From assembly GCA_009839505.1 (NCBI GenBank), contig VXPO01000099.1, forward strand, positions 1-62,002: 62,002 nucleotides of DNA. The letters are read 5' to 3'. Each line of letters begins with the position of its first letter. The first letter of the stretch is position 1. The notes below the pieces were generated by a model, which was not told the DNA's origin, did no database searches, and was given only the letters and a program-made list of their open reading frames with translations. Made by a program: the position numbers and the translations under genes. Shown here piece after piece: positions 47,110-58,769 of this stretch. This DNA is from Gammaproteobacteria bacterium (GTDB taxonomy: Bacteria; Pseudomonadota; Gammaproteobacteria; Pseudomonadales; Azotimanducaceae).

Positions 47110-47802
47110 ATGGCTGAACACCCCGCCGAGTTGCTTGAACAGCTCGCCACGATCGATACCCCCACCGTCTGCAACGCGTTGGAGAGCGTTGCGCCGCAGC
47201 GCCGTGGCTTCGGCTACACGGTGGAGCCCTTGGTCTGCACCCGCCCCCAACTGGGCGTCATGGTGGGCTACGCCCGCACCGCCACCATCCGCGCGCAGCA
47301 TCCGCCGGACCGGCGCAACAGTCCCGGCGACTACTACGACTACATCGACAACGGCGGGCCGAAGCCGGCGATCTCGGTGATCCAGGATCTCGACGGCGAT
47401 GCCCGCGGCTACGGCTCGTTCTGGGGCGAGGTCAACAGCAACATCCACAAGGGTCTCGGTTGTCTGGGCGTGATCACCGACGGCAGTGTCCGGGATCTGC
47501 CGGATGTAGCCGACGGCTTCCAGATGCTGGCCGACCGGGTGGGTCCCTCCCACGCGTTCGTGCACGTGGTTTCGTTCGCGGGCCAGATCAACGTCTGCGG
47601 CATGACTGTCATGGACGGCGACCTGGTGCACGCCGATCAGCACGGCGCGGTGGTCATTCCCCACGATGTGGCCGACAAGGTCATGGACGCCGCGGCCGCA
47701 ATCGCGCGCCGCGAAGGTGTCGTCATTGCCGCCGCGAAAGAGCCCGGGTTCAACATCGAGAAGTTGAGAGCGGCCCAAGGCAAGTCCGCCGAGATCCACT
47801 GA
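47110..47802 (+). CDS. RraA-family protein (4-hydroxy-4-methyl-2-oxoglutarate aldolase-like)
   Basis: A 230-residue RraA-fold protein. LATIDTPTVCNALES is the N-terminal signature, followed by GVITDGSVRDLPDVAD, where Asp and Arg bind substrate and metal, and GDLVHADQHGAVVIP near the end. The family includes HMG/CHA aldolases, oxaloacetate decarboxylases and the RNase E regulator RraA. The longer form here fits the aldolase-like branch. It is 16 bases upstream of the thioredoxin-fusion gene and opens the apparent three-gene unit ending in the selenoprotein. Confidence 0.85.
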   Translation: MAEHPAELLEQLATIDTPTVCNALESVAPQRRGFGYTVEPLVCTRPQLGVMVGYARTATIRAQHPPDRRNSPGDYYDYIDNGGPKPAISVIQDLDGDARGYGSFWGEVNSNIHKGLGCLGVITDGSVRDLPDVADGFQMLADRVGPSHAFVHVVSFAGQINVCGMTVMDGDLVHADQHGAVVIPHDVADKVMDAAAAIARREGVVIAAAKEPGFNIEKLRAAQGKSAEIH

Positions 47803-47818
47803 CCACGCGACGCTGGTC

Positions 47819-49378
47819 ATGGCAACGATGCTGCCCGCATTCTCGCTGGCCGACATGGCGGGCGGCGATCGGACGTTTCCCACTGGCGCACCGGCGCTGG
47901 TCTGCTTCGTCAAGGAGGACTGTCCCACCTGCAACCTCGTGATGCCGCTGCTGCAGGCGGCGCACGATGCGGGCGAGGTGCCACTGCTCACCGCCGGACA
48001 AACCGTGGAAGGCAACCGGACGCTCACCGAGCGTCATGGCCTGACCGTTCCGCTGCTGGACGACTCGACGCTGAAGGTGTCTTTCGCCTACGACGTCGAG
48101 ACCGTACCGCTGGTGCTGCTCGCCGACGGCGACGGCGAGGAGGTCGACCGGCTGGTCGGCTTCGACCGCGCGGAGTGGCAGGAGTTTTTTGGCAACCACC
48201 TGCCCGGAACCCAGGTCGACTGGGAGTCGCTGCCGAAGTGGCGTCCGGGCTGCGGCTCGCTGACCCAGGATCCGGTGATCGCGGAACGACTGCGGGCCGA
48301 GTCGGAGAACAGTCCGCTACGGGCGCGCAAGATCGAGATCGCCCCGGCCGACGACGTCCACGAGTTCCTCTTCGACCAAGGCTTCACCGATGGCTTGCCG
48401 GTCGTGCCGCCGACCCCCGAGCGGGTGCTGCGCATGTTGAGCGGTACCAAGCGTGACAGCCAGGAGGTTGTCGCCGAGATCCCGCCCAACTACGCCCCGG
48501 CGACCGTCGAAAAGATCGCCATTAATGCCGTCCTCGCCGGCTGCAAACCCGAGTACCTGCCGGTGGTCATCGCCACGGTCGAGGCGGTCTGCAACAAGAC
48601 GTTCAACATTCACGGCGTCAACGCCACCACCATGGGCGCCTCGCCGGTGGTGATCGTCAACGGCCCCATACGTGAGCGCATCGGCATGAACATGGGGCTC
48701 GGCGTCCTCGGCCAGGGCACGCGCGCCAACGGGGCTATCGGCCGTGCCGTGCGCTTGGCTGTGCGCAACATCGGCGGTGCCAAGCCGGGCGGAACCGAAC
48801 GCTCAACGTTGGGCAACCCGATGAAGTTCACGATGTGTTTCGCCGAGTGGGAGGAACGCAGTCCGTGGGAACCGCTGCACGTCGAACGTGGTTTCGACGC
48901 GGAGGACTCCGTGGTAACCGTCTTCGCCATGACCAGCGGTCCCGCCCTGTGTGTGGATCAGTCGTCGCGGACCGCGAAACAGCTCGCGGGCAGCATCGGC
49001 CTATCGGTGGAAGCGGCCCACCATGTGCGGGCCCACAACGCCGGCGATGCGCTGCTTGTCATCTCGCCCGAACACGTCGACACCCTGAGACGCGATGGTT
49101 TCACCAAGGACGACGTCCGCGAACAGATCCAGAAGGTGACTGCACGACCGCTCGCCGAACTGGCCTCGACCGACGAGGCCGGAGGGGGCATTTCACCGGA
49201 ACGCCTTGCCGCCATGCCCGAGGATCGCCGCAATCGCCCAACGCCGAAGTTCGCCTCCAAGGACAACATCCACATCGTCGTGGCGGGGGCCGGAGCCGGC
49301 AAGTTCACCGGCGTCTACCACGGCTGGGCCGGCGGCGCGATCGGCTCCATGCCGGTGTCACGAAAGATCGACCATTGA
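47819..49378 (+). CDS. Thioredoxin-fold fusion protein, partner of the UGSC selenoprotein
   Basis: A 519-residue protein. Residues 1-130 form a TlpA/thioredoxin-like domain with a CPTC redox motif (C35-x-x-C38 in VKEDCPTCNLVMPLL) and a cis-Pro region DVETVPLVLLADGD. A second Cys-rich spot, RPGCGSLTQD, follows. Residues from about 180 on (FTDGLPVVPPTPERV, EKIAINAVLAGCKPEYLP, NIHGVNATTMGASPVVIVNG) belong to a conserved domain I know only from uncharacterised proteins encoded beside UGSC genes. No signal peptide. It lies 16 bases after rraA-like and 50 bases before the selenoprotein. It is a candidate reductant or substrate-binding partner for that protein. Confidence 0.8.
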   Translation: MATMLPAFSLADMAGGDRTFPTGAPALVCFVKEDCPTCNLVMPLLQAAHDAGEVPLLTAGQTVEGNRTLTERHGLTVPLLDDSTLKVSFAYDVETVPLVLLADGDGEEVDRLVGFDRAEWQEFFGNHLPGTQVDWESLPKWRPGCGSLTQDPVIAERLRAESENSPLRARKIEIAPADDVHEFLFDQGFTDGLPVVPPTPERVLRMLSGTKRDSQEVVAEIPPNYAPATVEKIAINAVLAGCKPEYLPVVIATVEAVCNKTFNIHGVNATTMGASPVVIVNGPIRERIGMNMGLGVLGQGTRANGAIGRAVRLAVRNIGGAKPGGTERSTLGNPMKFTMCFAEWEERSPWEPLHVERGFDAEDSVVTVFAMTSGPALCVDQSSRTAKQLAGSIGLSVEAAHHVRAHNAGDALLVISPEHVDTLRRDGFTKDDVREQIQKVTARPLAELASTDEAGGGISPERLAAMPEDRRNRPTPKFASKDNIHIVVAGAGAGKFTGVYHGWAGGAIGSMPVSRKIDH

Positions 49379-49428
49379 GTTCGCGCCCCAGACGCGTTAA
49401 ATCAACACTGCACTAGGAAGGAGGGACC

Positions 49429-49947
49429 ATGGCAACGATCCTCGACCCCACCGACGAGCGGGTACCGGTGGCACGCACGGTGACGCCGCGCAGCGGCACC
49501 GTGCGCGGCAACGTCGCCCTGCTCGACATATCGAAGCCGCGCGGCAACGTGCTGCTCGATCAACTGGAGACCCGGCTTGCCGAGCGACTGCCGGACGTGA
49601 CCATCAACCGGTACGCCAAACCGACGTTCACCAAGCCGGCGCCGGATGCATTGCGCCGGGACATCCGCGACGCCAACGACTTTGTGATCGAGGCGCTGGC
49701 CGACTGAGGCTCCTGTACCACGTGCAGTTTGCATGACACGGTATGGTTCGAGATCCAGGGAGTTCCCTCGGTCAGCATCGCTTCAACGGAGTTCGTGGAC
49801 GCGGCCACGGCACAGGCCGAAGCCCTCGGCATGGACGACGCGCGTCGCGTGTTCGTCGCGCATCCCATCCAGGATGCCACCGACGACGAGATGCGCGCGA
49901 AGGCGGACGCGTGCGTTGACGCCGTCGTGGATGCGTTGACCTCGTAG
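49429..49947 (+). CDS. UGSC-family selenoprotein with in-frame TGA (Sec)
   Basis: The reading frame starts at an ATG after a strong AAGGAGG, runs 92 codons, meets TGA at 49705-49707, and continues in the same frame to TAG at 49945-49947. With TGA read as selenocysteine (residue 93) the 172-residue protein is MATILDPTDERV... with the motif UGSCTTCS in place, then HDTVWFEIQGVPSVSIAST and VFVAHPIQDATDDEMRAK. UGSC is the defining motif of a family reported in marine selenoprotein surveys. A plausible SECIS stem-loop follows the TGA. Sec insertion would need selA, selB, selD and tRNA-Sec, which lie outside this window. A simple reading as two fragments is less likely, since the downstream part has no ribosome-binding site and keeps coding character. 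Confidence 0.85.
49705..49744 (+). promoter_or_regulatory. Putative bacterial SECIS stem-loop with UGA codon
   Basis: After the TGA, GTACC (49715-49719) pairs with GGTAT (49740-49744), and CGTGCA (49721-49726) pairs with TGCATG (49730-49735), allowing G-T pairs, with a one-by-four internal loop. The apical loop GTT starts 20 bases after the TGA; a G within the first two loop positions and a spacing of 16-37 nt are the described criteria for bacterial SECIS. Confidence 0.7.
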
Positions 49948-49989
49948 CGCGACCCTATCGCGCGGGGGGCGCGTGATACCCCGCACTAT

Positions 49990-50076
49990 GGGACATCCAG
50001 CCTAGGGTGGATGTCCCTTTTCGGCCGTAGGGTGGATGTCCCTTTTCGGCCGTAGGGTGGATGTCCCTTTTCGGCC
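49990..50076. repeat. Hairpin and three 25-bp tandem repeats with GGTGGATGTCCC
   Basis: GGGACATCCA (49990-49999) pairs perfectly with TGGATGTCCC (50008-50017) around an 8-base loop. Three 24-25-base direct repeats start at 50003, 50028 and 50053, each TAGGGTGGATGTCCC followed by TTTTCGGCC. The repeated word differs by one base from the GGTGGGTGTCCC of the array at 161-378. The block separates the selenoprotein stop from the remnant of a second copy of its 3' end. Confidence 0.9.
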
Positions 50077-50144
50077 CCGACGACGAAATGCGGGCCAAGG
50101 CGGATGCGTGCATCGACGCAGTAGTGGATGCGCTGACGTCGTGA
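50076..50144 (+). pseudogene. Remnant of a second UGSC-family gene (3' end only)
   Basis: Translated in frame to TGA at 50142-50144 it reads PDDEMRAKADACIDAVVDAL followed by TS. The selenoprotein ends TDDEMRAKADACVDAVVDAL and TS. The DNA differs at about a fifth of positions, mostly silent, so this is an old paralogue end and not a recent copy. No start or catalytic part remains. The rest of the gap (50145-50269) holds only a 6-bp hairpin at 50174-50190 and a REP-like block. Confidence 0.75.
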
Positions 50145-50230
50145 CCCGGCTTTAGCGGGCTCGCATCGCCGGAGCGGGGTTTATCCCCGCCCACGCGAGT
50201 TGGAACGCGGAAGTTGTCGCGCGCAGACGC

Positions 50231-50272
50231 GGGCGACCACAACCCGCCCGCGAGGGCGCGCCCTCGCCCCTA
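50231..50272 (-). repeat. Degenerate REP-like repeat supplying a stop codon
   Basis: GGGCGACCACAA at its left end and CTCGCCCCTAC at its right end match the REP-like family, with an unrelated GC-rich centre. The CTA at 50270-50272 is the TAG stop of the CoA-transferase gene. Confidence 0.65.
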
Positions 50273-51451
50273 CGCGATCACACCGCTCGAGCGTAGCTCC
50301 TCGATTTCGGTCGGCTCCAGCCCGAAATCGGTGAGCACGCCGTCGCTGTCGGCACCCGGATCCGGGGCGGCGTGGTCGAACCGCTCTGGGTGCGGGAACC
50401 CAGACAGGTTGATCGGCGAACGGATCAGGTTGACGTCCCCCAGCTCCGGATGTGCGGCCGGCTTGGCCATCTCCAGGTACTTCGCCTGCGGGTTGTCAAA
50501 GCCGCCCTTGATGTCGCCGATGGGACCACACGGCACGCCGGCCGCATTCAGCCTTGCCACTACGTCATCCACCGACAGATCCGCAATGGCCCCCTCGATC
50601 TCCGCGTTCAACTGCACCTTCGCCCCACGTCGTTTCTGCACCGTGTCGTACCGGTCATCGCCGTAGAGCGCATCGGCACCAACCGCTTCGCAGAAGCTCT
50701 TCCACATCCGATCCGACGGCGCCGCGATGTTGACGTGGCCGTCCCGGCAGCGGAACGCGCCCATGGGCGTAGCGATCGGGTGGTCGTTGCCCTGCTGTGC
50801 GGGCACATCACCCAACATCGTGTACCGGGCACCCTGGAAGTCGAGTTTGTTCAGCATGGCTTCGAGCAGCGAGGTATGCACCCACTGCCCTTCGCCGGTC
50901 TTCTCGCGATGCAGCAGCGCCAGCAGGATGCCCTGCCCCAGGAACATGCCCGCAGCCGTGTCGCTGATGGCGATGCCCACCCGCATCGGCCCGCGGCCCG
51001 GTTCGCCGGTGATGGACATGAGTCCGCTCATGCCCTGAACGATCTGGTCGACCCCTGGCCGCTTGCTGTAGGGACCTTCCTGCCCGAACCCCGAGATGCT
51101 GGCGTAGATGATCGCCTCGTTGGCAGCCTTGACCGACGCGTAGTCCACCTTCAGCCGGTGCTTGACGTCGGCGCGGAAGTTCTCGACGACGACGTCGGCC
51201 CGCGCTGCCAGCTTCATGAAGAGCGCGTGACCGTCGGGATCTTTCAGGTTGATGCAGACGCTGCGCTTGTTGCGATGCAGGTTCTGCTCGTCGGGTCCCC
51301 GGCGGGCACCGGTCATCGCGCCACCAACAGCCGGCGGCGCTTCGATCCTGACGACATCCGCTCCCCAGTCCGCCAGCAACCTGACAGCGGTGGGACCGGC
51401 ACGGGCGATGGTTAGATCAAGGACCGTGTAGCCGGCAAGTGGACCGTTCAT
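50270..51451 (-). CDS. CaiB/BaiF-family (class III) CoA-transferase
   Basis: A 393-residue class III CoA-transferase that moves CoA between organic acids. The start MNGPLAGYTVLDLTIARAGP is preceded by AGGAAGG four bases away, which sets this ATG over an upstream one. LLADWGADVVRIEAP, RNKRSVCINLKDPDG and the catalytic Asp region KRPGVDQIVQGMSGLMSITG are typical. HPIATPMGAFRCRDGHVNIAAPS follows. The stop codon lies in a REP-like repeat. The donor and acceptor acids are unknown. Confidence 0.9.
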   Translation of the reverse strand: MNGPLAGYTVLDLTIARAGPTAVRLLADWGADVVRIEAPPAVGGAMTGARRGPDEQNLHRNKRSVCINLKDPDGHALFMKLAARADVVVENFRADVKHRLKVDYASVKAANEAIIYASISGFGQEGPYSKRPGVDQIVQGMSGLMSITGEPGRGPMRVGIAISDTAAGMFLGQGILLALLHREKTGEGQWVHTSLLEAMLNKLDFQGARYTMLGDVPAQQGNDHPIATPMGAFRCRDGHVNIAAPSDRMWKSFCEAVGADALYGDDRYDTVQKRRGAKVQLNAEIEGAIADLSVDDVVARLNAAGVPCGPIGDIKGGFDNPQAKYLEMAKPAAHPELGDVNLIRSPINLSGFPHPERFDHAAPDPGADSDGVLTDFGLEPTEIEELRSSGVIA

Positions 51452-51614
51452 GAAGCCTTCCTGGTTGGGCCCGGTTGGGCGGGTCGGCATAGCCTAACCG
51501 TTGACCCTGGCGACCGGAAGCAAACCGGCTGTTCGCCAACGACACAGGTACTCCGATTCCGTTGCCTCGCAAAAGTTGCATAATCTTTCCATAAAGATAC
51601 CGTTAACTCGGAAC

Positions 51615-54600
51615 GTGAGCACGAGAGATACCCAGCCGCATTTCCACCGAACTCCAAGCTTCTGCAACCTGCTCGCGCTTTGCGCGATCGCGGTAGCGCC
51701 CACAGTGGTCGGACAGCCGGACGCCAGTGACGCGTCCCCGTCCAGCAGCCGTTCCGCAGACGACGTTTGGGCGTTCGTCGACCAGCCGGAGATCGGCCCG
51801 CTGCGCGCCACGGCCGACGCGTACCGGGCCGCGCGTATGGACCAGGACACCCTGCTCGGGGTTCTGGAGCGGGTGTCGGAACGTCGCTACAACGAGCCAC
51901 TGCCTGTCTTGACCTTGCCAATGCCCGATGGCTCGTTCGCGCGCTTCAGGATCAGAGCCGAACCACAGCCGGGACGTGAGGCCGTGCAGGCCTACCGCGG
52001 GCGGGGCCTAGACGGCGGGGATGCCCGGCTCGAGTGGACCGCCCAAGGCCTGCACGCCATCGTCTCCACGGCCCGGGGCGCCGTCTATGTGGACCCGGTG
52101 GCTGGCGTTCCGGGTGCCTACATCACCTATTTTGCAACCAATGCAGGCCGCCCGCTGCTGAACGGCTCCGATCTGCCCCTCGCGGCCGTGCGCCAGATCG
52201 AGACCGTCATGGGGGAGAAGGAGGATCGCGATCCCGCACAGCGCAAGATCGACTCCCGGCTCCTCGACGCGTCGCGGCTGGCGCAGGGCAACGAGGTGGT
52301 TCCCGCCTACAACAGGCCGCCGGTGGAAATCGAGGCCAGCGGCGACCCCGAGCGAACAGACTGGTACGTCGCCCCGTCGCAGGACGGCCCGCTGCGGGTG
52401 CTGGTGGACTTGAGAGCCGACGTCACCCCGGAGTTGCTGGCTCGGATCGAGGATCTCGGCGGCGAGGTGGTCAACAGCGTGGGCAAGTACCGCGCCATTC
52501 GCGCATGGATGCCCCTCGACAACATGGAGACCATTGCGGCACTCGACCAAGTGCAGTGGATAAGGGTTGCCGATCAGGCGATCACCAACCCGTCGGTGCA
52601 ACGTCCGGAGCGGGTCGGTAGGACCGTCTCCCAGGGCATAGACAAGGTCGATACCTCCCAGGGCGATGTAGCACACGATGTCGCGAAGGCACGAACGGAA
52701 TTTGGCGTCGACGGCACCGGAGTCGGCATCGGCGTGCTGTCGAACGGCATCGGCACGCTCGCCGATCGCCAAGCGTCGGGTGATATTCCGGGCGCGGTGG
52801 TCGTCTTGGAAGGGCAGGCGGGCGAGCGCGTCCACCGAGAAGGGACCGCGATGCTGGAGATCGTCCACGACCTAGCACCTAGTGCTCACCTGTATTTCGC
52901 CACCGGTTTCGGCAGCCCCGCCCAGTTTGCCGCGAACATCGAAGCGCTGTGCGAAGCGGGCGCGGACGTCATCGTCGACGATATCATCTGGTTCGCCGAG
53001 GCCGCTTTTCAGGACGATGTGGTGGCCAAGGGCGTCAACGAGGCGGTTGATGCAGGGTGCTTCTACTTCTCGGCGGCCGGAAACGCCGGCAACCTCAACG
53101 ACGGCACGGCTGGCGTCTGGGAGGGCGACTTTGCGGATGCTGGTGGCGAACCTCAGGTGGATGTCGTGCCAGGGCGCAACCACCACGAGTTCGCCGACGG
53201 GGTCAGTGCCAACCGTATTACGAAATGGGGTCGCGCGTATCTGTTGAAATGGGCGGACCCGCTCGGCGCCTCCGCCAACGACCACGACCTCTATCTCCTC
53301 GACGAGTCACTCACCACGGTGATTCACGCGTCTACGAACGTGCAGGACGGGGAGCAGGATCCGGTTGAGGGCTTCAACGGATTTCCCGACGATGTCGGCA
53401 AGCATCTTGTGGTGGTGCGCAATGAGGGCCAAGCGCGGTACATCCGGCTCAATGCCATTCGCGGTGAGCTGGAGCACGTCACTGCGGGGCAAACATTCGG
53501 TCACGCTGCCAGCGAGAGTGGTATCGGTGTGGCGGCGGTGGCCGCGTTCAGCGCCGGCGGTGACGCTGGAGTCTTCGATGGCAGCGAGTCGGTGGAGACA
53601 TTCAGTTCGGATGGTCCGCGGCGGATGTTCTTCCGGCCGGACGGTACGCCCATCACGCCGGGGAACTTCTCGTCGACCGGTGGCATAGTACTCGACAAGC
53701 CGGACATCGCCGCTGCCGACGGCGTTTCCACATCGACCCCCGGCTTCCGGGTCTTCGAAGGCACGTCGGCGGCCGCGCCCCATGCCGCGGCCATTTCGGC
53801 ACTGATGGTGGAGGCGGCCGGCGGCCGAAACCAGATAGATCAGGAGACGCTGCGCCAAGCACTGGCGGAGGCTGCCCTCGACATCGAGGCTCCCGGCGTC
53901 GACCGCGACTCCGGCGCGGGAATCCCACTGGCGCCAGCCGCGGTTTCCGCTGTCGCATCCGACAGGACGCATCGGGCGCCGACCGGCACGCTGCAGGATC
54001 AGACGCTGAGCGTGGACGCCGATGTTCGAGAGCTCGACCTGTCCACCACGTTCGATGATCCCGACGGCGAGGCGCTGACCTATAGCCTGCTGCCGGGCGC
54101 CGAAGGCATCGCCGCGGTCACCCTGTCGGGGACCATTCTGACCATCGATCCACTCGCACCGGGAACCGTCACCGTTACGATACGAGTCACCGATCCCGGT
54201 GGCTTGAGCCGGCTTCAAAGGGTCGCCGTCACCGTGGAGCGGGACTACGGCGACACCGACTACGACGCGGACGACGACGGGTTGATCGAGATTGCCAATC
54301 TGGAGCAACTCAACGCGCTGCGCTACGACCTCGACGGCAACGGCGAGACCGACGTACCCGCCGATTGGATTTCCTACTTCGAGGCCTTCGACGATGCCCA
54401 GGAAGCCATGGGTTGCGCGGACGGCTGCACGGGCTTCGAGTTGACGGCGGACCTCGACTTCGAAGACCCGGGAAGCTACGCCTCCGGGGTAGTCGATCAC
54501 GGTTGGACCCGGGCCGAGGGCGGTTCCGGTTGGACGCCCATCGGCATGGGCGACGACGACTTCCCGAACGGTGGGGACGGCACCTTTGCCGCCAACTTCG

Positions 54601-57600
54601 ACGGCAACGGGCACACGATCGCCAACCTTTTCATCAACCGGCCGGCGATGAAGTACGTTGGCCTGTTCGGCCAGGTGCACATGCGGCCGATCACGAACCT
54701 TGGATTGACGGCCGTCGACGTCACAGGCGGCAACCGGGTGGGCGGTCTGGCCGGAGACGTTGTCGGGGGCAGTAGCCTCCGAACCAGCCATGCGACCGGA
54801 ACGGTGTCGGGACACGACGTCGTGGGGGGGCTGGCAGGATCGGTCAGTGTTCCCGTCCGAAACTGCTACGCCTCCGTACGTGTAACCGGCCGCTGGCTCG
54901 TCGGCGGTCTGATCGGCGCTCAGAACCTCGGTAGCACCCTCCAATCCTCCTTCGCCACGGGCACCGTGGCCGGAGTCGCGAGTGTCGGGGGGCTGGTCGG
55001 ATCGAACTGGTCACCGATTGTGGCCAGCTATGCCACCGGTCCCGTGTCGGGAGAGGGCCTCCGGGACGGTCGCTGCAACAAAGGAGGCGTCGGCGGCTTG
55101 GTGGGCCACGTGTGCGGCCAACCGGTTGTTGCCAGCTATGCCACAGGGCCCGTATCGGGAGCAAGCGTCGCCGGTGGGATCGCGGGCAGCAAGTCTATAA
55201 CGACGTCCTTGCGATCCAACTACTGGGACATCGAAACCTCTGGCCTCGTCGTTGGTGTCGGCGACGATGACAGCAACGACAACGGGACGCTGGAGACCGA
55301 TGAGATTCGCTCGCCTGGTGTCGGCGGCATGACGACGGCAGAATTGCAGACACCCACGGCCTACACGGAAATCTACCGTGATTGGTATCGGACCGATGTC
55401 TTTCCAACCGGCGACGCCTGGCATTTCGGTTCTTCATCGCAGTACCCGGCCCTCAGGGCCGATATCGATGGCGACGGTACCGCCACGTGGCAAGAGTTCG
55501 GCACCCAGATCCGCGAACGTCCGCAACTCACCATTGCCGCGAACGACGGGCAGGCGACGTTGTCGTGGACAGCGGTGAACGACGATCACTGGACTCCACG
55601 ACCCGAATTGACCTACTCCGTCTACCGCGATGGCATCCCGATTGCCACCGGCGTCGTCGCCCATGGCTACGCGGACACGCCTCCGGCCGGTACGGAGTCC
55701 ATGTACCAGGTCGTCGCGATCGTCGACGGCGGCGAGGCTTCGCGAAGCAATCTCGTCCCGGTCCATAACCGCCCGCCGGCGTCACCCCCAGTCGCCGATC
55801 GGTCGGCGCGCGCCCGCGCGTCCTTCAGCTACACGTTCGGGCATGCCGGCGAGCCGGACGGCGATACCGTCACCTATAGCGCGACCGGCGTGCCGGGATG
55901 GTTGACGTTCACACCTTCCTCGCGAACGTTCAGCGGAACTCCGGCTGACAGCGACACCGGCGCCGCCGACATCACCGTAACGGCTACCGACGACGGCGCA
56001 CCCGCACTGTCCTCGACCGCCACGTTCACCCTGACCGTCATCGATTCCAACGCGTCCAACCGGGCTCCGTCCACGGTCGGAACCCTGGACGCCATCTCGC
56101 TTCCCACAGGATCAACCGCAACGGTGCAGGTCGCAGACGCGTTCGAGGATGCCGACGGCGACAGTCTGGGCTACAGCACAGCAACGAGCGATGCCGACGT
56201 GGCAACCGCGCGAATCTCCGGGGACGCGGTCACAGTCGCGGCTGTTGGTGTGGGGCAGGCCACGGTCACCGTGACCGCGAGCGACGGCGCACTCACCGCC
56301 GACCAGACGATCTCCGTGTCCGTGGTGAACGCCGCGCCCGAGGCCGTGAGATCCCTCGCCGACCGCAGGCTGGTGATTCCCAGTGCCTCGGCGACCGTGG
56401 TGCCATCCGACGCTTTCCGCGATCCAGACGGAGACGCGTTGACCTACGGTGCAACGTCAATGGATGAGGATGTTGCAACGGCCAGCACCTCCGGCGGAGC
56501 GGTGACGCTCACGCCGGTGGGTGTGGGATCGACTAGCGTCACGCTCACGGCCACGGACGTCGGGGGATCCAACGCCACCGCAACGCAGTCGTTCGGCGTA
56601 AGCGTCCGTCGAGACTACGATGTTGACGACGACGGCCTGATCGAGGTCGGAGGGTTTAGCCAACTCGATGCAATTCGCCTGGATCTCGATGGCGATGGCA
56701 TCGTCGATCCAACCGGTTTCCTGGTTTTGGAAACGCTTCCAGAGCATGTGGCCGCCCACGAACTCGCCTATCCGGACGCGGCGGCGCGCATGGGCTGCGA
56801 CAGTCTGAACGGCTGTTTAGGCTACGAGTTGATGGAGGACTTGGATTTCGACACCAACGGCAGCGGCGACGCGGACGAGGGGGATTCGCATTGGAACGAT
56901 GGTCGGGGTTGGGAACCGATTGGTGACCGCCAAAGGCAGTTTCAAACCACGTTCGACGGGAATGGCCACGTCGTCGCCAACCTGTTCATCGACCGACCCG
57001 ACGAGCAATTCAACGGCCTGTTCGGGCTTGTCGGCGAGTACCAGCTTCACCAGGGAATCGTCCGAGACGTGGGCCTCGCCGATGTGAACGTGAGCGGATC
57101 GGGACCAATCGGCAGCCTAGTCGCGCAGAACTGGTCCCTGGTCGAAAACTGCTTCGCCACCGGTAGCGTGCGCGAGACCTCACGGGCGACCCGTGGCCGG
57201 GCCGCTGGTGGTTTGGTTGGCTGGAACGGTTTCGTAAACGTCGGCGGTGTCATTCGAAGGTGCTACGCGGCCGTGGCGGTTTCAGCGGATGTCAGCAATG
57301 CGGCGGGCGGCTTGGTGGGGTTCAACGACCGTGGCGGGCACATCCTCTCGAGTTTCGCAACGGGCAGTGTGGAGTCGGACGAGTGGTCGGGCGGCCTGGC
57401 GGGTAGCAACGCGGGCGAAATCGGCGACAGTTATGCGACCGGTCGAAGCTCGACTGCCGTATCTGGCGGACTCGCAGGCGGTCTGGTCGGCATCAATTGG
57501 GACCATGGTGTCATCACCAGCAGCTACGCTACGGGGCGACCGACAGCAGAACGGCCCGATGGATCGACGGAGTTCCGCAAGGTCACGCTAGGCGGGGTCG

Positions 57601-58769
57601 CAAGCATATCCCAGGGCGAGATCCTTCGGAGCCATTGGGACCTGCAAACCTCGGGCTGGCAGGTCGGCGTGGGTAGGGACGACCAAAACCGAAACGGCCG
57701 CCTGGATAGTGATGAAACCGCCACCACCGGCGCGTCCGGGAGGACCACCGCAGAACTCCAAGCACCCGAGGAAGGTGCCGGCATCTACCAGGACTGGAGG
57801 GTCGATGGCCCGGGTTCCTGGCACTTCGGCTCCGCGACGCAGTACCCGGTCCTGCGCGCGGATCTCGACGGCGATGGACAAGAGACCTGGTCGGAGTTCG
57901 GCTACCAGCTCCGCGACAGGCCGCGGCTCACCGCCACCGTCAAAGACGGTAGGGCCGAACTGGCGTGGACGCTGGTCGACACCGGTCATTGGGATCCCGA
58001 GCCGACGGTACGCTATGCGGTCCTCCGCGACGGGAAGCTCTTGGCGACCGATCTCGACGGATCGACCTACACAGACCCTACGCCTGGCCTCGACTACCAG
58101 GTCGTCGCGTTGGTCAACGACGGTGAGGGATCGCGCAGCGGCCTCGCCGTTTTGGTCGCTCATTGCGATGAAGGCACCACGTGGCTAGCCGGCCAGAGGT
58201 GCCGCATCGGGCCCACGTCGTTCACCTTTGAAGTCAACAGCGACGGGACCGTCTGCGTGGGTTCAACGTGCAGCGCCCCGGGCGAAAATCGGTTCGTCGC
58301 CCACATCCGAGCCGGCCACATTCGAATCGTCGTCATCGCGGACCGCGACGACGCCGGTGCCTGGACATTGTCCGAGCTCGCACCGAAGGCTCCGCCCAAC
58401 CGCAAGCCGAACGCGTTGGGGTTGGTGAGAACGGTGACGCTGGCACCTGACGGCGACTCGGTGACGATGGATGTGGTGCGGTTCTTCGAGGATCCGGACG
58501 GCGACGAGTTAACGTACACGGCCGAGACCTCGGAAAGTAGCGTCGCGACCGTCGACTTGGTAGAGAGCATCCTGACGATCACATCGTCAGGAGAAGGCCA
58601 GGCGACGGTGACCGCTACGGCCCAGGATCCGGGTGGTCTGTTTGCGACCCAATCCATCGAAGTGACGGTCCGTATCCAGGACACCCTTCTCTCTCGGTGG
58701 GCTCGGGGGTGGCGGCTGGCAATCGCCAGCCAGGTCGAGGACTCCCCTGGCGAAACGAGCGAAGACTGA
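51615..58769 (+). CDS. Very large secreted protein: atypical S8/subtilisin-like peptidase with GLUG and Ig-like repeats
   Basis: About 2,384 residues from a GTG; an upstream TTG at 51501 would add 38. A signal segment (NLLALCAIAVAPTVVGQ) is near the start. An S8-like domain spans about residues 360-770: DGTGVGIGVLSNG (the usual Asp reads Asn377), HREGTAMLEIVHD (Glu409 at the usual His site, His407 two residues before), YFSAAGNAGN (oxyanion Asn), GTSAAAPHAAA (Ser718). Then Ig-like domains and two similar modules, each DDDGLIE, a calcium-like DLDGDG, GLUG repeats (GGLAG/GGLVG with SYATG), an FnIII-like domain and Ig-like repeats. No C-terminal anchor or sorting signal is recognised; the tail ends SQVEDSPGETSED. 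Confidence 0.85.
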   Translation: MSTRDTQPHFHRTPSFCNLLALCAIAVAPTVVGQPDASDASPSSSRSADDVWAFVDQPEIGPLRATADAYRAARMDQDTLLGVLERVSERRYNEPLPVLTLPMPDGSFARFRIRAEPQPGREAVQAYRGRGLDGGDARLEWTAQGLHAIVSTARGAVYVDPVAGVPGAYITYFATNAGRPLLNGSDLPLAAVRQIETVMGEKEDRDPAQRKIDSRLLDASRLAQGNEVVPAYNRPPVEIEASGDPERTDWYVAPSQDGPLRVLVDLRADVTPELLARIEDLGGEVVNSVGKYRAIRAWMPLDNMETIAALDQVQWIRVADQAITNPSVQRPERVGRTVSQGIDKVDTSQGDVAHDVAKARTEFGVDGTGVGIGVLSNGIGTLADRQASGDIPGAVVVLEGQAGERVHREGTAMLEIVHDLAPSAHLYFATGFGSPAQFAANIEALCEAGADVIVDDIIWFAEAAFQDDVVAKGVNEAVDAGCFYFSAAGNAGNLNDGTAGVWEGDFADAGGEPQVDVVPGRNHHEFADGVSANRITKWGRAYLLKWADPLGASANDHDLYLLDESLTTVIHASTNVQDGEQDPVEGFNGFPDDVGKHLVVVRNEGQARYIRLNAIRGELEHVTAGQTFGHAASESGIGVAAVAAFSAGGDAGVFDGSESVETFSSDGPRRMFFRPDGTPITPGNFSSTGGIVLDKPDIAAADGVSTSTPGFRVFEGTSAAAPHAAAISALMVEAAGGRNQIDQETLRQALAEAALDIEAPGVDRDSGAGIPLAPAAVSAVASDRTHRAPTGTLQDQTLSVDADVRELDLSTTFDDPDGEALTYSLLPGAEGIAAVTLSGTILTIDPLAPGTVTVTIRVTDPGGLSRLQRVAVTVERDYGDTDYDADDDGLIEIANLEQLNALRYDLDGNGETDVPADWISYFEAFDDAQEAMGCADGCTGFELTADLDFEDPGSYASGVVDHGWTRAEGGSGWTPIGMGDDDFPNGGDGTFAANFDGNGHTIANLFINRPAMKYVGLFGQVHMRPITNLGLTAVDVTGGNRVGGLAGDVVGGSSLRTSHATGTVSGHDVVGGLAGSVSVPVRNCYASVRVTGRWLVGGLIGAQNLGSTLQSSFATGTVAGVASVGGLVGSNWSPIVASYATGPVSGEGLRDGRCNKGGVGGLVGHVCGQPVVASYATGPVSGASVAGGIAGSKSITTSLRSNYWDIETSGLVVGVGDDDSNDNGTLETDEIRSPGVGGMTTAELQTPTAYTEIYRDWYRTDVFPTGDAWHFGSSSQYPALRADIDGDGTATWQEFGTQIRERPQLTIAANDGQATLSWTAVNDDHWTPRPELTYSVYRDGIPIATGVVAHGYADTPPAGTESMYQVVAIVDGGEASRSNLVPVHNRPPASPPVADRSARARASFSYTFGHAGEPDGDTVTYSATGVPGWLTFTPSSRTFSGTPADSDTGAADITVTATDDGAPALSSTATFTLTVIDSNASNRAPSTVGTLDAISLPTGSTATVQVADAFEDADGDSLGYSTATSDADVATARISGDAVTVAAVGVGQATVTVTASDGALTADQTISVSVVNAAPEAVRSLADRRLVIPSASATVVPSDAFRDPDGDALTYGATSMDEDVATASTSGGAVTLTPVGVGSTSVTLTATDVGGSNATATQSFGVSVRRDYDVDDDGLIEVGGFSQLDAIRLDLDGDGIVDPTGFLVLETLPEHVAAHELAYPDAAARMGCDSLNGCLGYELMEDLDFDTNGSGDADEGDSHWNDGRGWEPIGDRQRQFQTTFDGNGHVVANLFIDRPDEQFNGLFGLVGEYQLHQGIVRDVGLADVNVSGSGPIGSLVAQNWSLVENCFATGSVRETSRATRGRAAGGLVGWNGFVNVGGVIRRCYAAVAVSADVSNAAGGLVGFNDRGGHILSSFATGSVESDEWSGGLAGSNAGEIGDSYATGRSSTAVSGGLAGGLVGINWDHGVITSSYATGRPTAERPDGSTEFRKVTLGGVASISQGEILRSHWDLQTSGWQVGVGRDDQNRNGRLDSDETATTGASGRTTAELQAPEEGAGIYQDWRVDGPGSWHFGSATQYPVLRADLDGDGQETWSEFGYQLRDRPRLTATVKDGRAELAWTLVDTGHWDPEPTVRYAVLRDGKLLATDLDGSTYTDPTPGLDYQVVALVNDGEGSRSGLAVLVAHCDEGTTWLAGQRCRIGPTSFTFEVNSDGTVCVGSTCSAPGENRFVAHIRAGHIRIVVIADRDDAGAWTLSELAPKAPPNRKPNALGLVRTVTLAPDGDSVTMDVVRFFEDPDGDELTYTAETSESSVATVDLVESILTITSSGEGQATVTATAQDPGGLFATQSIEVTVRIQDTLLSRWARGWRLAIASQVEDSPGETSED

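Follow-up and report, generated by a model that had tools for sequence, protein, structure and literature searches.

A UGSC-family selenoprotein gene and its obligate upstream partner in a gammaproteobacterial contig, with remote kinship to the reductase subunit GrdB

The window analysed here, a 62,002-nt stretch of DNA that makes up contig 117 among the 181 of a 4.7-Mb genome, carries on its forward strand a 172-aa member of the known UGSC family (49429–49947), in which the in-frame TGA of codon 93 (49705–49707) is near certain to encode selenocysteine (Sec). The linkage and the identical occurrence of the two genes show that UGSC works together with a partner domain encoded directly upstream, and we consider it fairly probable that the pair forms a two-component, thioredoxin-fed reductase of the GrdB/PrdB kind in which the TGA is decoded as Sec. 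Both the obligate partner just upstream and the GrdB kinship had escaped an earlier sequence-only reading of this DNA, and were found in the present analysis.

The ATG at 49429 is preceded by the Shine-Dalgarno-like AAGGAGGG at 49418–49425 on the forward strand, in keeping with the ideal ribosome-binding signal described for it before. Past the TGA the same frame stays open for 79 codons (residues 94–172) up to the TAG at 49945–49947, and the codons GGC TCC TGT right after the TGA specify Gly-Ser-Cys, the feature from which membership in the UGSC family had been proposed. Two family models agreed with this proposal over their cut-offs, both alignments spanning the TGA of the read-through protein: Pfam UGSC (PF24696), with a cut-off of 25, scored 163.5 bits over residues 3–171, and NCBIfam NF041046, UGSC (seleno)protein, with a cut-off of 125, scored 166.2 bits over residues 28–171. 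The motif UGSCTTC of the window protein has the form UxxCxxC, from which subfamilies B and D, as defined below, depart, the third Cys being absent in D and shifted in B. NCBI has a UGSC family model, and Cys forms are annotated as UGSC family (seleno)protein; the expectation that gene callers would report two truncated proteins was thus too general, although for one Sec form, on the Acidovorax sp. T1 plasmid p2-T1, the plasmid table gives only a 'hypothetical protein' ending at the TGA. That the function of the family is not established, as the sequence-only reading had stated, agrees with the available text of PMC13188914.

The genome possesses the machinery for Sec insertion, the absence of which had been named as a possible refutation. 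A check for selA, selB, selD and tRNA-Sec, proposed together with the original claim, found all four over cut-off (517, 371, 256 and 69 bits, respectively; the gathering score for tRNA-Sec is 47), with selA, selB and tRNA-Sec together on contig 150 and selD on contig 129. A UGSC search of 58 related genomes returned 77 matches in 36 genomes, and exactly one in-frame TGA lay inside 75 of the 77; because of this recurrence, the isolated sequencing error that had been named as a possible refutation was excluded. We re-read 75 of the 77 loci, leaving out G017:C58 (partial, at a contig start) and G019:C436 (E 7.9e-4). Gly-Ser-Cys followed the TGA in 73 of these family loci, the exceptions being G017:C111, without Sec, and G015:C2:728572, a partial match with UCSA. 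Grouped by the residues around Sec, 32 loci (window included) belonged to subfamily A, 11 to B, 17 to C and 12 to D; a further type and the two exceptions made up the rest. The selB gene was over cut-off in 38 of the 58 genomes and accompanied UGSC in 34; UGSC occurred without selB in 2 (G031 and G033, each 91% complete), selB without UGSC in 4, and neither in 18, as in G006 of the same genus (Fisher p 2.5e-9, which is not a strict probability since the genomes are related).

Cys stood at the Sec position in 26 loci of other organisms (L156–L181), collected by a scan with a Cys pattern that could find Cys forms only. Six of 8 plasmid records with UGSC were examined, five with Cys and one, Acidovorax sp. 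T1 p2-T1, with a TGA past which the frame runs on into the partner domain; in viral contigs, none of 16 pattern matches was a relative. Purifying selection was similar on both sides of the TGA. Among 30 subfamily A sequences (435 pairs), pN/pS was 0.28 before the TGA and 0.30 after the hairpin described below, this last stretch being compared ungapped with a one-codon gap near its end in a few rows. The stretch past the TGA, where coding character had been noticed earlier, is conserved, and the lack of conservation there, offered as a second possible refutation, was not observed. A decayed gene, with a true stop or an error at the TGA and with 49429–49707 and the remainder as its pieces, could account for the ordinary predicted stability of the hairpin, but it is contradicted by the single inner TGA recurring across the family, by the selection past it and by the Sec machinery of the genome, and we hold it to be very improbable.

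Bacterial SECIS elements are hairpins that follow the UGA immediately and have a G within the first bases of their loop. The window sequence conforms to this rule with the putative upper stem-loop CGTGCA-GTT-TGCATG (49721–49735, forward strand), in which 49721–49726 pair with 49730–49735 over 6 bp and the loop GTT (GUU; 49727–49729) begins at the 20th nucleotide after the TGA. Of the two-part stem suggested before, the apical loop 20 nt downstream was confirmed, while the lower part was present in many A relatives but did not take the same form in B, C and D. Across subfamilies A, B, C and E, each of 32 distinct sequences retained pairs 17–31 to 21–27; a C-G to G-C exchange occurred in 8 of them and G-U in place of G-C in 4. 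Pairs 15–33, 16–32 and 22–26 formed in 13, 12 and 24 of the 32, respectively. In total 81.6% of cells paired, compared with 7–56% when one side was slid by 1 to 3 columns. Subfamily D has a different hairpin, shifted by two bases.

The codons encoding this element were strongly constrained. Synonymous codon identity at residues +4 to +10 of subfamily A reached 0.93 versus 0.50 in 33 other columns, none of which (0/33) attained 0.93 (30 sequences; rows G023 and G025 left out). The corresponding values were 0.89 versus 0.56 in subfamily C (1/24 other columns as high), 0.92 versus 0.39 in D (1/16) and 1.00 versus 0.68 in B, where 9/35 columns were as high and the signal is weak. Mean pS in subfamily A fell to 0.19 in codons +1 to +13 from 0.64 before the TGA, and was 0.67 after (435 pairs, 30 sequences), an over threefold reduction of synonymous change at the hairpin relative to its flanks. 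Folding of 49705–49760 was ordinary by comparison with dinucleotide shuffles (z 0.15; 106/200 shuffles at least as good). The case for the SECIS rests on conservation, and folding energy, being uninformative, was dropped as proof. A permissive Rfam scan of 49400–50200 listed no SECIS family.

Two further features follow the gene. The segment 50003–50076 consists of three perfect copies of the 25-bp unit TAGGGTGGATGTCCCTTTTCGGCCG, with GGGACATCCA just before it; GGGACATCCA and the first TAGGGTGGATGTCCCTTTTCGGCCG copy resemble an intrinsic terminator, of which the 3′ half and the T-run have been triplicated. At 50077–50144, 130 nt downstream of the gene, the terminal part of UGSC recurs as a diverged second copy (DDEMRAKADACIDAVVDALTS, then TGA) that over 66 nt shares 85% identity with the original and is either a remnant of another UGSC copy or an assembly product. 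Elsewhere in the genome, contig 10 carries a second UGSC gene (L063, 5570–6088) of subfamily C, with the sequence GDUGSCSTCSLHDG and its own partner upstream.

The partner of the window gene is a 519-aa protein (47819–49378, forward strand) whose ORF ends 50 nt before the UGSC ATG. Residues of about 1–135 comprise a probable thioredoxin-like domain with CPTC, and the C-terminal part (about 170–519) is the partner domain proper, ~340 aa long and without a Pfam or NCBIfam family: the two collections gave only thioredoxin-like N-terminal hits for the window ORF and nothing over a cut-off for sets of four and six partner relatives. A relative of this domain was located beside UGSC or fused to it in 71 of the 75 family loci. 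The four loci without an adjoining partner were the two exceptions (L116, L123), L086, in which UGSC runs off the contig, and L105, where the genome's other partner copy is >2 Mb away. UGSC and partner formed one ORF of about 545–559 aa in 9 loci, all of subfamily B, and their genes overlapped by 4 nt in 8 of the named loci. In other organisms the partner was present at 31 of 32 loci, or 30 of 31 distinct ones, since a single record underlies both L174 and L183; the locus without it was L178 of an uncultured Methanobrevibacter. At the level of whole genomes, the 36 of 58 relatives that possess the partner were exactly those with UGSC, and this was also true of 6 of 397 genomes drawn from the phylum, the own genome being one of the 6. 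This identical occurrence together with the linkage indicated that the two constitute a two-gene unit, and the unnamed domain, newly recognised here, is an obligate partner of UGSC that is nearly always adjacent or fused.

The literature, as far as its text was available, named no UGSC partner apart from Unknown_1, a conserved unknown domain reported as fused to UGSC in the accessible part of PMC2398784. Fused UGSC–partner ORFs occurred here too. The AlphaFold2 model of the partner had a mean pLDDT of 70.1 and was confident only from about residue 180; its PDB fold search gave no match at E 0.001. The model weakly resembled fumarate hydratase and cyanuric acid hydrolase, at best with E 0.016 and TM 0.2, and this likeness was left unused. 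Direct PDB sequence searches with UGSC and with the partner returned chance-level matches or none.

The AlphaFold2 model of UGSC itself, built with 27 sequences, reached a mean pLDDT of 93.5 and showed five strands alternating with five helices, with Sec placed between strand 85–91 and helix 94–109. Among the best 50 of 1793 hits in a PDB fold search, most were FMN reductases, flavodoxins and lumazine synthases by title (TM about 0.3–0.55), and none was a thioredoxin. According to this prediction, UGSC is flavodoxin/Rossmann-like with Sec at the start of the helix after the third strand; neither the model nor the search assigned it a thioredoxin fold, and the thioredoxin-like fold proposed in print is, as a new result of the modelling, not borne out.

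The model bears on the function put forward in the literature from the UxxC motif, namely that UGSC is a thioredoxin-type thiol-disulfide oxidoreductase or a peroxidase-like antioxidant and the partner its protein substrate. Besides the motif, this proposal could claim the thioredoxin-like domain that is probably fused to the partner. It is at variance with the predicted alternating five-strand, five-helix sandwich, with the lack of a thioredoxin among those 50 hits, with an hhalign probability of 0.8–0.9 between UGSC and TrxA, and with gene neighbours that are linked to catabolism and carboxylate transport, not stress. We regard it as unlikely and favour a reductase of the GrdB/PrdB kind.

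The same motif, UxxCxxC, is carried by GrdB, as the available parts of PMC13188914 and PMC6778437 report. A 104-sequence UGSC profile aligned by hhalign to five GrdB-type sequences (from Acetoanaerobium noterae, Photobacterium sp. DA100 and the related genome G030, with GrdF of Peptoclostridium acidaminophilum and GrdH of Enterococcus gilvus) with a probability of 95.4 and a one-pair E of 1.9e-8, Sec falling on Sec, and the strand after the next helix and an HP motif also matched up. Single GrdB sequences scored between 66 and 95 in probability against the UGSC profile, PrdB 35–54 and PrdB-like selenoproteins of this bacterial family 8.5. The named GrdB and PrdB sequences were taken from a plasmid collection because none of the 397 phylum genomes contained a full GrdB at E 1e-60. 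When 300 locus ORFs were scored as a control, the six best came from UGSC-bearing loci, being UGSC pieces judging by locus and score; the best unrelated one reached 28.9–30.4, reversed GrdB 21–22, TrxA 16 and GrdE 11–13, versus 52.5–59.0 for GrdB of G030. Pfam GRDB (PF07355) produced no hit on the window protein even at E 10, and a PDB sequence search found no GrdB structure. The partner profile showed no similarity to GrdE or GrdB (probability 0.2 against GrdE of G030). From these alignments we take UGSC to be remotely homologous to the C-terminal Sec domain that GrdB of glycine/sarcosine reductase carries, and not to be a member of PF07355; no UGSC–GrdB link was found in the available text of the UGSC papers.

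Related selenoproteins were also observed in these genomes. Contig 23 of the own genome (L150) encodes a PrdB-like selenoprotein with VPLUPVCHQT that is related to Pfam GRDB, and similar genes with UPVCHQ or UPxCTR are found in many related genomes, the match table showing them cut off at the TGA. The genome G030, a relative of this genus, has a full GrdB with Sec (UGTCTRC; L126) adjoining a GrdE-like gene.

Several loci connect UGSC with thioredoxin. The N-terminus of the window partner scored 22 bits for AhpC-TSA, below the cut-off of 26, in a region modelled with low confidence, and the CPTC domain, a feature of subfamily A, was present in 31 of the 77 sequences searched, which comprised 75 UGSC loci and two sel loci; we consider it probably thioredoxin-like by sequence. 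The gene order is trxB-trxA-partner-UGSC in Arthrobacter sp. ERGS1:01 and partner-UGSC-trxB in Roseovarius sp. THAF8. Of the 32 loci of other organisms, 7 had a TrxB relative and 3 a TrxA relative. The family sequences had a TrxB relative in only 3/77 and a TrxA relative in 0/77, so that an adjoining electron source is not the general case. The grd clusters of a known organism carry trxA and trxB too, according to the available part of PMC6778437.

Directly upstream of the partner, at 47110–47802 on the forward strand, lies a gene for an RraA-like (aldolase/RraA) protein, relatives of which occurred in 14/75 family loci, all of subfamily A, and in 0/32 other loci. Convergent to UGSC on the reverse strand is a CoA-transferase family III (CaiB-like) gene (50270–51490; 23/75 family and 14/32 other loci). 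TctC was found in 0/75 and 12/32 and LysR in 1/75 and 12/32, all four counts being raw figures without a background rate that serve as hints only. The neighbours of UGSC were genes for catabolism and carboxylate transport, not for stress responses. Such surroundings suit a regulated catabolic unit that handles an imported acid and whose substrate differs from one paralogue to another. Phosphosulfolactate synthase is annotated near UGSC in Natrinema zhouii (L183) and Arthrobacter sp. ERGS1:01 (L185), with relatives also at L179 and L181, a possible hint of a sulfonate-like substrate. Further along the window, 51501–58769 is a 2422-aa ORF starting from TTG, with repeated domains and a GTSAAAPHAAA motif that we take to be of the subtilisin-type peptidase kind.

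This setting has to be weighed against chemistry without net reduction, in which a nucleophilic Sec or Cys would act, for example, in a lyase, transferase or hydrolase, and thioredoxin would merely keep the residue reduced. The varied neighbourhoods with CaiB-like, amidohydrolase, lyase and aldolase genes are compatible with such an enzyme, as are the wide spread of Cys forms and the fact that most family loci outside subfamily A have no adjoining thioredoxin genes. The GrdB kinship and the trxB-trxA linkage favour reduction, and Sec is usually found in redox enzymes; we therefore give non-reductive chemistry a small though appreciable chance and retain the two-component reductase as the preferred reading.

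Its first steps follow from the results above, which establish the Sec coding, the linkage to the partner and the remote GrdB homology. As read from the conservation and from the genes present, the hairpin would assist SelB and tRNA-Sec in decoding the TGA of codon 93. By analogy with GrdB and PrdB, we infer the reductive chemistry, the electron source and the class of substrate: the Sec selenolate would attack a small, probably carboxylate substrate held with the help of the partner, and the substrate would be cleaved reductively by the Sec of UGSC. The oxidised Sec could then form a selenenylsulfide with the invariant Cys96, to be reduced by the thioredoxin-like domain, which is here probably fused to the partner and elsewhere might be replaced by TrxA with thioredoxin reductase.

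More tentatively, and with a likelihood that we place somewhat lower, UGSC and its partner may represent a third branch of two-component Sec reductases beside glycine and proline reductase, which would use thioredoxin electrons to cleave a carboxylate that TTT or TRAP transporters bring into the cell and would extend through bacteria and, as Cys forms, into halophilic archaea. If this is true, a selenoprotein that ranks among the commonest in aquatic metagenomes would be a catabolic enzyme and not a thioredoxin-type antioxidant. The partner, the predicted fold and the GrdB link narrow the question of function to two genes, thioredoxin and thioredoxin reductase.

Compared with the UGSC family of PF24696 and NF041046, the window gene agrees in its full-length match, UGSC motif, downstream hairpin and accompanying Sec machinery, and the protein itself shows no difference. 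Unlike GrdB, GrdF and GrdH (PF07355), UGSC has no PF07355 match, mostly only its C-terminal ~85 residues align, and its partner is not GrdE-like; it nevertheless shares with them Sec after a strand, U-G-[ST]-C-T-x-C, an E..G(I/V)P strand and the HP motif, and some UGSC clusters, like some of grd, include trxA or trxB. The profile match to PrdB is weak (see above), yet two named PrdB sequences have their Sec in UGTC, PrdA is annotated beside prdB, and PrdB resembles UGSC in being a short Sec subunit with a larger partner.
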